Shown here piece after piece: positions 8,799-15,193 of a DNA stretch of 47,171 nt; position 1 is the first letter of the stretch, and each line of letters opens with the position of its first letter. Source of the stretch: Candidatus Methanophaga sp. AG-394-G06 (GTDB lineage: Archaea > Halobacteriota > Syntropharchaeia > Alkanophagales > Methanospirareceae); assembly GCA_009903405.1 (NCBI GenBank), contig PRCZ01000007.1, positions 1 through 47,171 on the forward strand. The letters run 5' to 3'. The notes below the pieces were generated by a model. The model made no database searches and was not told the origin of the DNA. It was given only the letters and a program-made list of their open reading frames with translations. Position numbers and translations under genes: made by a program.

Positions 8799-9062
8799 AA
8801 TTAGTGGCACCCCTTCATTTTATGTGTAAAAAACGAAAAGCATTTAGATATGCTGAGCATATATTGTTAAGATATACGGCAATCCTGCGATATCAATGAG
8901 GAGGCGAAGATGATGGTAAATCATACGGCAATCAGTATTATTATTTATGGGTTCACCAAGCGGTCTAGCAGAAGAGTGCGCACGGTTCATGAAATTGTTG
9001 CGGGAGTGATGGCAATGATGTCAAGGGCTAGGAAGGTTTGATAATAAGGGGTTAAAAGCATG
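8760..9062 (+). repeat. Leader segment copy 1 upstream of Roco gene 1
   Basis: Close similarity to 11250-11554: GATGAAGATATAGG..CCAAATAAAATTAGTGG..CTTCATTTTATGTG..GATATACGGCAATCCTG..ATATCAATGAGGAGGCGA..TTATTATTTATGGGTTCACCA..ATAATAAG. Confidence 0.85.
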
Positions 9063-11126
9063 CAAAAGCACAAGGTTTTGCAACTTATCGCGGAAGCGGC
9101 AAGAAAGAAGCAAACTGAATTGGAACTATCCTGGAATGAACTGAAGACATTGCCGGCGGAGATAGGCGAGCTAACGAACCTTACCAAGCTTGACCTATCC
9201 TATAATCAACTGAAGAGATTGCCAGCGGAGATAGGAAAGCTAACGAACCTTACCACGCTTGACCTATCCCTCAATGAACTGACGAGATTGCCGGCAGAGA
9301 TAGGGAAGCTAACGAACCTTACCGAGCTTGACCTATCCAGCAATCAACTGAGATCATTGCCGGCGGAAATAGCGGAGCTAAAAAACCTTAGCGCGCTTGA
9401 CCTATCCAACAATCAATTGAAGACATTGCCGGCGGAGATAGTGGAGCTAAAAAACCTTACCCTGCTTAACCTATCCGAAAATCCCCTGGAATCCCCCCCT
9501 CTGGATATTGCCAACAGGGGGATTGAAGCAATAAGATCTTATTTCAAATCATTGGAAGGAGAAAAACAACCATTAAACGAAGTAAAAGTGTTGTTGGTAG
9601 GTGATGGCGGAGCAGGAAAGACCTCATTGGTAAAACAAGTGTTGGGTGAAGAATTTGATAAGCATGAATCACAAACGCATGGTATAAATTTAAGAGATTG
9701 GAAAGTGGAAGAAATACATGTCCATTTCTGGGATTTTGGCGGTCAGGAGATTATGCACGCCACACACCAGTTCTTCTTATCAAAACGGAGCCTTTACCTT
9801 TTGGTTTTGGACGGTAGGAGAGACGAAAAGACCGAATACTGGCTCAAACATATAGAGAGTTTCGGCGGTGATTCGCCTATTTTAGTGGTTCTGAACAAAA
9901 TAGATGAGAATCCGAGCTTTGAAGTGAACCGTAAATTCTTACAGGAGAAATACAAGGGCATAAAGGGCTTTTTTCGTGTTTCGTGTGCTGAGGGCCAAGG
10001 AATAAAAGATTTTACCGGCGCTCTGAGCAAAGCAGTGGCAAACGTAGAGCTTATCGAAACCATGTGGCCAAAAACATGGTTCAATGTAAAGACGCAATTG
10101 GAAGAGATGACAGAAAATTTCATCAGTATTGACAAGTATAAAGAAATGTGCACGAACGAAAAGATAACAGAAAAAACTGATCAGGATACACTTGTAGATT
10201 TTCTGAACGATTTGGGCGTGATACTACATTTCAAGGATTTTGAGTTGCTAGACACGCATGTGCTAGAACCGAAATGGGTAACAAACGCCGTGTACAGGAT
10301 AATCAATTCAAAAGAATTAGCAGCGTGTAATGGCGTTTTAAAATTAGATTTATTAGATGAGATATTGAAAAAGGAAGCGGAAGACGATTATTATTACCCC
10401 TCTGGGAAATACAGGTACATCATAGATTTAATGAAGAAATTTGAGTTGTGCTATGAGATAGATAAAGAGACAGTACTGTTACCAGACCTGTTAGAAGTAC
10501 CAGAGCCCGAATTTGATTTTGACTATGGTGCGGCTTTGAAATTTGTCATTGACTATGATTTCTTACCCAGGTCCGTTATGCCGCGGTTTATAGTAAAGAT
10601 GCATAACGATATAGCGAGTGAATTGCGTTGGAGAACGGGCGTGGTGCTGGAAGAGAAAGCTTTTCGTTCTACTGCAGTTATTAAAGCAGATGAACGGGAT
10701 GAGAAAATATATATTTATGTTGATGGGGAACAAAAAAGAGATTATTTCTCCGCAATCTTATTTACTTTCCGGGGAATAAATAGAAGCTTCGAAAAATTAA
10801 AAGCAATCGAAAAAGTTCCTTTGCCGGATGAACCAGAAGTAACAGTGAGTTATGAGCATTTAATCAGATTGGAGAAAAAGGGTATTGAAGAGTTTATGCC
10901 AGATGGTTCAGAAAACGAATATAAGGTAAAAGATTTGTTGGGAACAATATACGTAGAAAAGAAGACAGAAGAAGAGATTATAACGATTTTAAGAGAACTT
11001 AAAGATAAATCGGATACTGAAGAAACTTTGCTACAAAAGGCGGAGGATGTTGTTATATTACAGCCAAACTTCATGGGGCTAGGGATAGATGTGAAAAAAG
11101 TGATTAAGAAGTTATTTCGTAAATAA
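9060..11126 (+). CDS. Roco-family protein: LRR - Roc GTPase - COR
   Basis: Five LRR-23 units (LPAEIGELTNLTxLDLSxNxLx), P-loop VGDGGAGKTS, switch II WDFGGQE, NKID, then a COR-like region. Confidence 0.95.
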   Translation: MQKHKVLQLIAEAARKKQTELELSWNELKTLPAEIGELTNLTKLDLSYNQLKRLPAEIGKLTNLTTLDLSLNELTRLPAEIGKLTNLTELDLSSNQLRSLPAEIAELKNLSALDLSNNQLKTLPAEIVELKNLTLLNLSENPLESPPLDIANRGIEAIRSYFKSLEGEKQPLNEVKVLLVGDGGAGKTSLVKQVLGEEFDKHESQTHGINLRDWKVEEIHVHFWDFGGQEIMHATHQFFLSKRSLYLLVLDGRRDEKTEYWLKHIESFGGDSPILVVLNKIDENPSFEVNRKFLQEKYKGIKGFFRVSCAEGQGIKDFTGALSKAVANVELIETMWPKTWFNVKTQLEEMTENFISIDKYKEMCTNEKITEKTDQDTLVDFLNDLGVILHFKDFELLDTHVLEPKWVTNAVYRIINSKELAACNGVLKLDLLDEILKKEAEDDYYYPSGKYRYIIDLMKKFELCYEIDKETVLLPDLLEVPEPEFDFDYGAALKFVIDYDFLPRSVMPRFIVKMHNDIASELRWRTGVVLEEKAFRSTAVIKADERDEKIYIYVDGEQKRDYFSAILFTFRGINRSFEKLKAIEKVPLPDEPEVTVSYEHLIRLEKKGIEEFMPDGSENEYKVKDLLGTIYVEKKTEEEIITILRELKDKSDTEETLLQKAEDVVILQPNFMGLGIDVKKVIKKLFRK
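9120..9500 (+). repeat. 69-nt tandem LRR-encoding repeats in Roco 1
   Basis: Near-identical units such as TTGCCGGCGGAGATAGG..GAGCTAACGAACCTTACC..CTTGACCTATCC. Confidence 0.9.
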
Positions 11127-11249
11127 TTATAGTGGGATCCTGTTTTTAGAAAAGAACGCAGTTATAGATTAGATCTATATACGAAATTCGCATATACTAA
11201 ATAGAATATACGAAAACTGCATAAGATGGGAGGCAATAAGATATTGCTT

Positions 11250-11554
11250 TAAAGATGAAGATATAGGCAAAAAAATATCCCCAAATAAAATTAGTGGCCA
11301 CACTTCATTTTATGTGGAAAAAAAACGAAAAGTTTTAAGATATGGGGGGTATATACTTTAGGATATACGGCAATCCTGTAATATCAATGAGGAGGCGATG
11401 ATGACGGCAATTCGTAAGGGAATCAGGATTATTATTTATGGGTTCACCAGGCGATCTAGTGGAAGAGCGCGCACTGTTTCATGGAATTGTTGCGGAAGTG
11501 ATGGCAAAGATGTCAAGAGGCAGGAAGGTATGATAATAAGGAGTTAAAAGCATG
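11250..11554 (+). repeat. Leader segment copy 2 upstream of Roco gene 2
   Basis: Aligns with 8760-9062, including the tail of the wHTH remnant (AAAGATGAAGATATAGGC). Confidence 0.85.
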
Positions 11555-12307
11555 GAAAATGACATGATTTTGCGTGTTATCGAGAAAGCTGCAAGAAATA
11601 AGCAAACCAAATTGGAACTATCCGGAAATCAACTGGAGAGATTGCCGGCGGAGATAGGAGAGCTAAAAGACCTTACCACGCTTTACCTGACCAGAAATCA
11701 ACTGGAGAGATTTCCAACGGAGATAGGAGAGTTAAAAAGCCTTACTACGCTTTACCTATCCGAAAATCGACTGACTTCATTGCCAGCGGAGATAGGAGAG
11801 CTAAAAAACCTTACCGAGCTTGACCTATCCGGGAATAAACTGAAGAGATTGCCGGCGGAGATAGGGAAGCTAAAAAACCTTACCTGGCTTAACCTATCCC
11901 TAAATAAACTGGAGAGATTGCCGGCGGAGATAGTGAAGCTAAAAAACCTTACCTCGCTTGACCTATCCGGGAATCAACTGAAGACCTTGCCGGGGGGGAT
12001 AGTGAAGCTAACGAACCTAACCAAGCTTTTCCTATCCGACAATCAACTGAAGACATTGCCGGCGGAGATAGAGGAGCTAACGAACCTTACCATGCTTAAC
12101 CTATCCGAAAATCAACTGAAGAGATTGCCGGCGGAGATAGTGGAGCTAAAAAACCTTACCATACTTTTCCTATCCAAAAATCCGCTGGAATCGCCACCAC
12201 CAGAAATAGCAGAACAGGGAATAGAGGCAATTTTTGAGTATCTGCGTCACCTCCCAGAGGAAGCAATAGAGCACAATGAAGCAAAGATGATCTTGGTAGG
12301 TCAATGA
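11552..12307 (+). CDS. LRR N-terminal part of a second Roco protein, ended by TGA inside the Roc P-loop
   Basis: Eight LRR-23 units, then EAKMILVGQ-TGA; the next in-frame codons read DVGKTCLAKRLIYDEF. Confidence 0.85.
   Translation: MENDMILRVIEKAARNKQTKLELSGNQLERLPAEIGELKDLTTLYLTRNQLERFPTEIGELKSLTTLYLSENRLTSLPAEIGELKNLTELDLSGNKLKRLPAEIGKLKNLTWLNLSLNKLERLPAEIVKLKNLTSLDLSGNQLKTLPGGIVKLTNLTKLFLSDNQLKTLPAEIEELTNLTMLNLSENQLKRLPAEIVELKNLTILFLSKNPLESPPPEIAEQGIEAIFEYLRHLPEEAIEHNEAKMILVGQ
11600..12190 (+). repeat. 69-nt tandem LRR-encoding repeats in Roco 2
   Basis: Eight LPAEI/LPGGI-type units with nearly identical codons. Confidence 0.9.
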
Positions 12308-12337
12308 GATGTAGGAAAGACCTGCCTTGCAAAACGA

Positions 12338-14173
12338 TTGATTTATGATGAATTCATAGAAGATAAAAGCACAGAAGGAATAGACATCTTAAAATGGGCA
12401 ATTACTGCACCCACAGCAGACGAGGAAGAGATAAAACTAAATGTATGGGACTTTGGAGGTCAGGAGATTTATCACGCCACGCATCAGTTCTTTCTCACCA
12501 AACGATCACTCTATCTACTAGTTTGGAATGCACGCAAGTCGCAGGATTATGAACATATTTACTACTGGCTGCATACAATAGAGGCTTTCGGAGAGGACAG
12601 CCCGATAGTATTAGTGCTGAGCAAATTGAACGAGCGGGACGATGATCTGAATATGAAAGAGCTAAGAGAAAAATTCCCGCAAATTGTCGGCTTATACAAA
12701 GTGGATAGCGAAGACGGAAAAGGAATTCCCACCTTGAAGGACATAATAAGTGAAACCGCCTGGCACCTGCCGCACATGCGGACTCCCTGGATCGAGTCAT
12801 GGTACAAGGTACGAGAACGATTAGAGCATGACGGACGGAATTGGATAGAATACGAAGAATTCAAGCAAATCTGCCAGTCAGAGGGATTGGATAACAAACA
12901 AACGGATATTTTAGATAAATCCCTGCACTATCTGGGCGTCATTATTCATTTCCAAGATAGATTGGAACTGCGCGACATGGTAATTTTAAATCCAGAATGG
13001 GCAACAAAGGCAGTGTATAAGATTCTGGATACGCAATCGATTTTAGATCGAGGCGGGATCTTATTGCACAGTGAATTAGACCAAATCTGGGATTCCAATA
13101 TTTATCCGCTGGATATTTTCCCAAAATTACTGGGACTGATGAAGAAATTTGAATTGGCGTTTGAACTGCCAGATAAGAAGAGCCACCTGGTTGCGGAACT
13201 ACTACCCAAAACAGAACCGGAATTTGAGTGGGATGAAACGAACAACTTGCGGTTTTATTACCGCTATGATTTTCTGCCTGCAGGAGTGATAACTCGCTTC
13301 ATTGTACTTATGCATGAGGATTTGGAGGATAAACCAGATGGGACTCATTTATGCTGGCGTGAAGGTGCGGTCTTGCAACGGGAAGATACACGTGCTCTTG
13401 TTAAGGTCATGCCACTGAAAAAACTGATTGAGATAAAGATCAATGGCAGCAGAAAACGGGAATTACTGGCTATCCTCCGCAACCAGTTTGACCACATTAA
13501 TAGTAAGATAAAAAAAGTAGCGGTTGCGCAAGAAATACCGTGTAATTGTTCAGAGGGATGCCCACATAGATTTGATTATATCCAATTATTAAATGCAGAA
13601 AACAAAGGTAAAATAACTGTTGATTGTCCAGAGAGCTGGGAAGAAGTACAGGTTTCGTTATTGTTAGACGGCTACAAAAAGAAAGAAGATAGAATGAAAG
13701 AAACAGAGGATATTTTTAAAGTTTTTAAAGAAAAAGGCATGCATGTTGAAATAAGCCCACAGATAGATGTAAATGTAAACTCTAAAGTAATCCAAAAAAC
13801 AGAAGTAGAAGCAAAAGCAAAAGCAGAAACAAATATTGAAATAAATTTAAAAATAGATTTACCTGCAATCCAAACGGAATTTCGTGAATTTAAAAGAGAA
13901 GTGACAAAATTGGATGACAAATTGGATGAAGAATTAGAAGATTTAGAAGACGATCTTTTAGAAATTACTCCTGCTTCTGAAGAAGGCAAGGTAAACAAAG
14001 CAATAAATAAATTATCGCTTTTTATGCAGAAACTAAAAGATAAAAATTCTAGATTTAGTAGAATAGTCAAAGGTACCAAAAAAGGAATAGAATTGGCACA
14101 AAAACTTGCTGTGACGTATAATAAATTTGCACAAGCGCTAGGATTAGATCCAGTCCAAGATTTATTTTTGTAA
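12338..14173 (+). CDS. Roc-COR C-terminal part of the second Roco protein, in frame with 11552-12307
   Basis: WDFGGQEIYHATHQFFL, LSKLNERDD, COR-like region, coiled C-terminus; (12338-11552)/3 is an integer. Confidence 0.85.
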   Translation: MIYDEFIEDKSTEGIDILKWAITAPTADEEEIKLNVWDFGGQEIYHATHQFFLTKRSLYLLVWNARKSQDYEHIYYWLHTIEAFGEDSPIVLVLSKLNERDDDLNMKELREKFPQIVGLYKVDSEDGKGIPTLKDIISETAWHLPHMRTPWIESWYKVRERLEHDGRNWIEYEEFKQICQSEGLDNKQTDILDKSLHYLGVIIHFQDRLELRDMVILNPEWATKAVYKILDTQSILDRGGILLHSELDQIWDSNIYPLDIFPKLLGLMKKFELAFELPDKKSHLVAELLPKTEPEFEWDETNNLRFYYRYDFLPAGVITRFIVLMHEDLEDKPDGTHLCWREGAVLQREDTRALVKVMPLKKLIEIKINGSRKRELLAILRNQFDHINSKIKKVAVAQEIPCNCSEGCPHRFDYIQLLNAENKGKITVDCPESWEEVQVSLLLDGYKKKEDRMKETEDIFKVFKEKGMHVEISPQIDVNVNSKVIQKTEVEAKAKAETNIEINLKIDLPAIQTEFREFKREVTKLDDKLDEELEDLEDDLLEITPASEEGKVNKAINKLSLFMQKLKDKNSRFSRIVKGTKKGIELAQKLAVTYNKFAQALGLDPVQDLFL

Positions 14174-14189
14174 TACATAACAATTTTAT

Positions 14190-14282
14190 AAAGACAAGAC
14201 AAAGAATACAAACAAGACAAACAAGACAACCGGAAACAAGACAAACAAGACAACACAAACAACACAAAAAAGACAAAGCAAG
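14190..14282 (+). repeat. AAGACAAAC-type low-complexity direct repeat leader
   Basis: 19-mer AACAAGACAAACAAGACAA at 14211-14229 and 14235-14253, with more AAGACAA variants; the same 19-mer recurs at 14977-14995. Confidence 0.85.
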
Positions 14283-14407
14283 ACCTGTGGTACGAAAGAT
14301 TTGGCTGGCGGGAAAATGTATTAACGACCAGGCCGAGTCCAAACCTGATAGGTCTGGAGCGAGAACGGCAAGAGCTAAAAGAATCCGTAGAGTCAGGCAG
14401 GATTTTA

Positions 14408-15193
14408 TTGATAAGAGGTGAAATAGGCACAGGCAAGACAAGTTTATTGCTCTGGTTAACGAATACACTGAAAAAGACAAATAAGACAAAACCTGTTATC
14501 CTTGAAGGCATAGAAACAAGAACAAAAGAGATTTTATTGTCTTCCTTGAGAAGACAAAGGACTTTGCGGGATAAGCTGATGCTGAGGTCGTATCCAAAGA
14601 ATCTTGTAGTGTTTTTAGACGAAGGGGAGAAGTTCCCCGAAGAGATAACCGAACATTTAAGGTTAATGTGGGACCGGAAAGACTTGTATTCAATTGTAAT
14701 AGCGACAACGGATCCCGCATTGGAGAATTTTACACCTGCTTTTAAGGACCGAATAGGAAAGACAATGGTCTTATCGTCTATAGCAAGAGGCGATCTGGTA
14801 GAAATAATAAGGAAAAGGGCGGGAGATAATAACCCTTTCACGTCCGAAGCGATGATAATCCTGGCGGAGAGATATAACTCGCCCAGACGACTCCTGGAAG
14901 GCTGTGCAGAAGTATGCATCTATTGTGCAGATGAAGGATTGGGTGAGGTAACAGAAGCTGTTGTTGAGGGATACATAACAAGACAAACAAGACAAGATGT
15001 AAGACTCTCTCCGGAGCAGCAGAAGATTGCAGATTTGGTGGGGCGAGGGGTGAATACGGTGAAGGAAATCGCGAAAGAATTGGATATGGGTGAGGCGGCA
15101 ACCAGGACACAGATAAAGCGAATGATTGAAAAAGGTTGTGTGGAGGTCGTTAGCAGTGAGCGACCAAAGAAGTATGGGTTGAAGTTGAGATAG
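14408..15193 (+). CDS. AAA+ ATPase with C-terminal winged helix (Orc1/Cdc6-like); N-terminus probably extends upstream of 14408
   Basis: Walker A GEIGTGKTS, Walker B-like LVVFLDEGEKF, ATTDP, wHTH VKEIAKELDMGEAATRTQIKRMIEKG; upstream frame encodes QDLWYERFGWRENVLTTRPSPNLIGLERERQELKESVESGRILL. Confidence 0.8.
   Translation: MIRGEIGTGKTSLLLWLTNTLKKTNKTKPVILEGIETRTKEILLSSLRRQRTLRDKLMLRSYPKNLVVFLDEGEKFPEEITEHLRLMWDRKDLYSIVIATTDPALENFTPAFKDRIGKTMVLSSIARGDLVEIIRKRAGDNNPFTSEAMIILAERYNSPRRLLEGCAEVCIYCADEGLGEVTEAVVEGYITRQTRQDVRLSPEQQKIADLVGRGVNTVKEIAKELDMGEAATRTQIKRMIEKGCVEVVSSERPKKYGLKLR

Follow-up and report, generated by a model that had tools for sequence, protein, structure and literature searches.

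A repeat family confined to one AAA+/winged-HTH gene of ANME-1 archaea links its leader and its coding linker and probably represents a locus-private minisatellite

An A-rich unit of ~9 bp, (A)ACAAGACA with its variants, forms one repeat family that occurs in variable copy number in the leader of an AAA+/winged HTH (wHTH) gene, in the interdomain linker encoded by the same gene, and in the 3′ flank of the gene in a relative. We propose that these repeats are probably a minisatellite private to the locus of this accessory ANME-1 gene, spread by slippage and local recombination. The window, i.e., the whole stretch of 47,171 nucleotides that was analyzed, comes from a genus within the Methanophagales (ANME-1). 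Its own genome, referred to here as G000, comprises 1.53 Mb and is 75% complete; G026 is a same-genus relative, a Methanophagales archaeon, whose contigs 80 and 123 we refer to as C80 and C123. The features of the locus are as follows.

14171 to 14190, plus strand: putative promoter, with ATACATAACAA (14173-14183) and then the TATA-like TTTTATAAAG, between the stop codon of the ROCO gene and the repeat tract.
14191 to 14284, plus strand: leader repeat tract, ~9-bp unit (A)ACAAGACA (from TRF, the D1 family, alignment, and composition).
14211 to 14229, plus strand: 19-mer copy 1, exact match.
14235 to 14253, plus strand: 19-mer copy 2, overlapping AGACAACCGGAAACAAGACAAA, identical to part of the G026 coding linker.
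14285 to 15193, plus strand: gene of 302 codons for an AAA+ (AAA_22-like) ATPase with a C-terminal winged HTH (from Pfam, orthologue starts, and dN/dS).
14472 to 14489, plus strand: degenerate internal copy with 2 mismatches, coding for KTNKTK; the G026-C80 orthologue has no copy.
14971 to 14981, plus strand: second copy of the 11-mer ATACATAACAA (the first is at 14173-14183), at the presumed deletion junction of G028.
14977 to 14995, plus strand: 19-mer copy 3, coding for TRQTRQ in the linker between the AAA+ lid and the wHTH.

The encoded protein matched Pfam AAA_22 (9.4e-08), with weak matches to MarR_2/TrmB, and a dN/dS of ~0.10 in both domains shows that it is under purifying selection. 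A 415-aa antisense ORF (13672-14919) was discarded as spurious, since divergence follows the codon positions of the plus strand. Identification by fold was abandoned because the AlphaFold model (mean pLDDT, 41) was of insufficient quality, and assignment to a defense system was rejected, as no PADLOC system fitted and only weak ATPase/wHTH matches were obtained. In the collections searched, a full orthologue was found only in G026, and fragments of the gene were found on C123 and in G027 and G028; both full gene copies (n = 2) come from draft assemblies, which may misrepresent the number of repeats. In the window (9060-14173), the AAA+ gene is adjoined by two genes of the Roc-COR (ROCO) type and by an LRR gene; the latter contains 69-bp LRR repeats that match many places in G026 contig 80.

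We considered whether the repeats could be a replication origin or the plasmid iteron array of an integrated element. Like iteron or DnaA-box arrays beside AAA+ initiator genes, the locus combines ~9-bp direct repeats, located within the gene and ahead of it, with an AAA+ protein that carries a wHTH and is likely to bind DNA, and weak matches to phrog_296 and phrog_168 point in the same direction. Unlike in such arrays, however, spacing is not fixed, binding is putative, and no sign of a replicon was seen: the gene has no relative in the plasmid, phage, and viral-contig collections, and its chromosomal neighborhood (ROCO/LRR upstream, ThiI-like downstream) is common to the genomes. The origin-like array envisaged in an earlier, sequence-only reading of this DNA is thus highly improbable.

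The same reading had described a 19-mer, AACAAGACAAACAAGACAA, which we recovered at all three of its positions (14211-14229, 14235-14253, and 14977-14995), together with the shorter variant reported near 14475 (AAAAGACAAATAAGACAA at 14472-14489, 2 mismatches). The leader tract was likewise real, with its limits corrected from 14190-14282 to about 14191-14284. Within the window, ACAAGACAA occurred seven times, on one strand and always within the AAA+ gene locus, compared to 0.42 occurrences expected from shuffles, none of which (0/100) reached seven. When the whole of G000 (1.53 Mb) was searched with the 18-mer core at ≤2 mismatches, all eight matches fell in the AAA+/wHTH gene and its leader and none elsewhere; there were no matches on the opposite strand and none with the reversed control. 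The motif was also found at related loci: all 16 matches at ≤2 mismatches in G026 lay on the same gene family, and, among the four other genomes assigned to the genus, two carried the repeat, each time on this AAA+/wHTH gene. Other 2-mismatch matches in genomes of the family were about as frequent as those of the reversed control. Five viral contigs with the exact 19-mer were set aside as unrelated, since the runs in them were short and isolated and the gene had no relative there. A TRF survey of 251 kb of G000, in which the leader tract itself was masked by the spurious antisense ORF, detected two other noncoding arrays with scores of at least 60 (61 and 73); the leader tract scores 106. Dispersed intergenic 10-bp repeats of TCTGCGTTAA were seen in both genomes of the genus (L100 51-84 and L123 8230-8263).

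The internal copies are not mere codon bias, because synonymous recoding of the protein yielded a perfect 18-mer in only 2 of 2,000 trials and a perfect copy together with a ≤2-mismatch copy in none (0/2,000). The repeat does behave as a unit of DNA, occurring across codon phases, in line with the earlier reading, which had argued for conservation at the DNA or RNA level. The phase argument itself is weaker than originally put, since the leader is not coding, and it is restricted to the copies at 14472 (KTNKT) and 14977 (TRQTRQ). The former is missing from the closest orthologue, which reads KKEIKTKP there.

That the leader tract is almost certainly untranslated follows from the relatives, as in both G026 copies the ATG comes directly after the tract (gacATGTGG). 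The window reads gacCTGTGG at 14285, and this CTG (14285-14287) could reflect rare initiation at CTG, recent loss of the start codon, or an error in sequencing. The promoter segment (14171-14190) is identical in G000 and G026-C80 and nearly identical in G026-C123, and archaeal promoter rules make TTTTATAAAG a putative TATA-like box. The tract is composed of 59 A, 21 C, 12 G, and 1 T in 93 nt, with TRF scores of 83 to 106 and arrays of period 9, 23, and 33; unit spacings include 5 and 23. With ~10 units in G000 and ~3 in G026 according to TRF, it is expanded relative to G026. The leader RNA was unstructured (z = 0.06), which argues against an RNA structure element. G000 and G026-C80 share the same 64-bp leader core, which is near-identical in C123, at a gene divergence of 6.5% between G000 and G026, which could mean constraint and would count against a minisatellite. 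This identity is not decisive, because the first 90 coding bases, adjoining the leader, are also nearly invariant (two differing sites between G000 and G026), and leader conservation was thus dropped as proof of constraint at the DNA level.

At the site of 19-mer copy 3, the linker between AAA+ and wHTH in G026 holds a 336-bp array, filled by the repeat in a single frame and reading TRQTRQVETRQTRQERQ..., compared to two units in G000 and G028. All 12 spacings in this linker are multiples of three. A second G026 array lies 3′ of the stop codon and extends to the contig end, with linker-like spacings (9, 15, and 87) and one 14-nt frame slip. The similar spacing pattern combined with this slip suggests that the downstream array is a copy of linker-like sequence freed from frame-keeping. 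Periods of the G026 TRF arrays were 9, 33, and 43. An inverted copy (AAACAAGACAAAC, minus strand) was noted a short distance past the stop codon of the gene in G026 (L028 5354-5368). Two interrupted words are common to different sites, AGACAACCGGAAACAAGACAAA (22 bp) to the G000 leader and the G026 linker and AAGACAAAGAATACAAACAAGACAACA (27 bp) to the G026 leader and the G026 downstream array; as these words exceed plain 9-bp periodicity, units appear to have been exchanged between sites.

Composite units of 165 to 186 bp, present in the G026 linker and downstream array, might be taken as the footprint of a mobile element inserting ACAAGACAA-containing repeats, a signature that the sequence-only reading had also raised. 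Since the composite unit is missing from the rest of G026, other genomes of the family are not above control level, and neither a transposase nor inverted termini were seen, we regard such an insertion as very unlikely. It is also improbable, in our assessment, that selection acts on the (TRQ)n linker repeat of the protein and that the leader copies derive from the linker as by-products. Such selection would fit the frame maintained in the G026 linker and the G000 leader unit of a type found in that linker. Against it, both genomes have the leader-type unit AAAGAATACAAACAAGACAA in their leaders, most of the variation among linker units changes an amino acid (T/I/P/K/E), and a two-unit linker is enough in G000.

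The 11-mer ATACATAACAA stands directly 5′ of the repeats both in the leader and in the linker, its only two sites in the window. In G028, a leader-type flank resembling that of C123 leads directly to ATACATAACAAGACAAACAAGACAA and the wHTH, and the AAA+ domain is absent; this loss coincides exactly with the 11-mer. Farther downstream, G028 and the window share ~96% identity. We infer that G028 represents a deletion rather than an ancestral short gene, because its remnant has no obvious ATG start and a remote homologue is also fused. The truncated copies in C123 and G027 stop at or within ~10 bp of the 14472 repeat. A flank of ~80 bp (GGAAAGACAGAACA...GACATTTTGCGACACGGGAGT) is common to the regions upstream of two truncated copies (L030 4862-4936 and L029 508-590).

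Unit exchange, frame-keeping expansion, and deletion at a repeat junction together point to minisatellite-type evolution. Consistently, the TRF arrays are head-to-tail direct repeats with units in the ~6- to 100-bp range of minisatellites, and copy number is variable among related strains or species, as seen in the leader and linker lengths of G000 and G026. Prokaryotic minisatellites (VNTRs) are direct repeats of variable copy number that arise by slippage or recombination, with possible effects on promoters or linkers, and there is usually a single array per gene; unlike in the usual case, exchange is visible here between regulatory and coding sites of one gene. Units would multiply via replication slippage or unequal crossing-over, and template switching or short-range recombination would copy them from site to site. 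Under selection to keep the frame open, the linker could lengthen only by multiples of three, which would yield a disordered hinge rich in T/R/Q/K/E, and the leader, being outside the coding sequence, could expand freely. The same direct repeats would also permit deletions, of which the missing AAA+ domain of G028 would be an example. The repeats would then need no specific function, and leader or hinge length may tune expression and protein behavior. Slippage with local recombination would thereby account for exchange, framed expansion, and breakage, with no need for a binding protein. However, slippage alone does not account for the confinement to one gene, and the 18-bp linker core, unchanged in G000, G026, and G028, also speaks against a minisatellite.

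The closest known system is that of the tandem repeats in Borg elements of Methanoperedens, which are A-rich short direct repeats in intergenic and coding DNA, with coding units divisible by three, and which give rise to disordered protein segments and turn over rapidly (PMC9879509). Borg repeats are near-perfect and pervasive, with a separate unit for each region (PMC9879509). The repeats described here are similarly A-rich and present in intergenic and coding DNA, with a coding spacing divisible by three (12/12 in the G026 linker). Unlike Borg repeats, they belong to one imperfect unit family common to three sites of a single ANME-1 gene (leader, linker, and 3′ flank), so that the unit is not unique to one repeat region, and they do not reside on a Borg element of Methanoperedens, the same-genus relative being a Methanophagales archaeon. 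The locus thus documents, in uncultured methane-oxidizing archaea, one repeat family trading units between the untranslated leader and the protein linker of the same gene, together with a deletion that can be traced to the repeat. The repeat appears to reshape and sometimes break its gene, and its role as a control site is putative.

In such a role, the repeats would serve the encoded AAA+/wHTH protein as operators or iteron-like sites; direct repeats that overlap the transcription start would bring about autoregulation, and internal or downstream copies would extend the platform. Several observations are in line with this idea: the tract lies just 3′ of the TATA-like box, the motif is kept at the orthologue promoters (G026-C80 and C123), the repeats are exclusive to a gene encoding a wHTH, and the 18-mer matches are all on one strand. 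Furthermore, an AAA+/wHTH homologue with 24% identity on contig 41 of G039 has an unrelated upstream array of ~11-bp GTGAAC-type units, ~300 bp in length, for which five of six genome matches at ≤2 mismatches are on contig 41. On the other hand, the motif lacks a dyad, neither copy number nor spacing is conserved, and units lie inside a coding linker where growth obeys the reading frame. Because slippage suffices, no strong array is seen upstream of more distant AAA+ relatives, and the G039 parallel is a single case whose contig may be of another archaeal lineage, we consider operator sites possible but unlikely. If they were real, they would offer a simple system, open to testing, in which AAA+ regulators address themselves through binding arrays private to their genes. 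It is more doubtful whether such a regulator recognizes its own gene via private arrays in leader, linker, and 3′ flank while distant members carry other arrays (9-bp ACAAGACAA here, 11-bp GTGAAC type in G039). On G039 contig 41, the GTGAAC-type ~11-bp repeats extend over several hundred base pairs (L032/L133 1500-2155, minus strand). This array adjoins a small HTH gene, lies near genes whose products read by eye as RadA-like and RPA-like, and looks like an operator or origin array.
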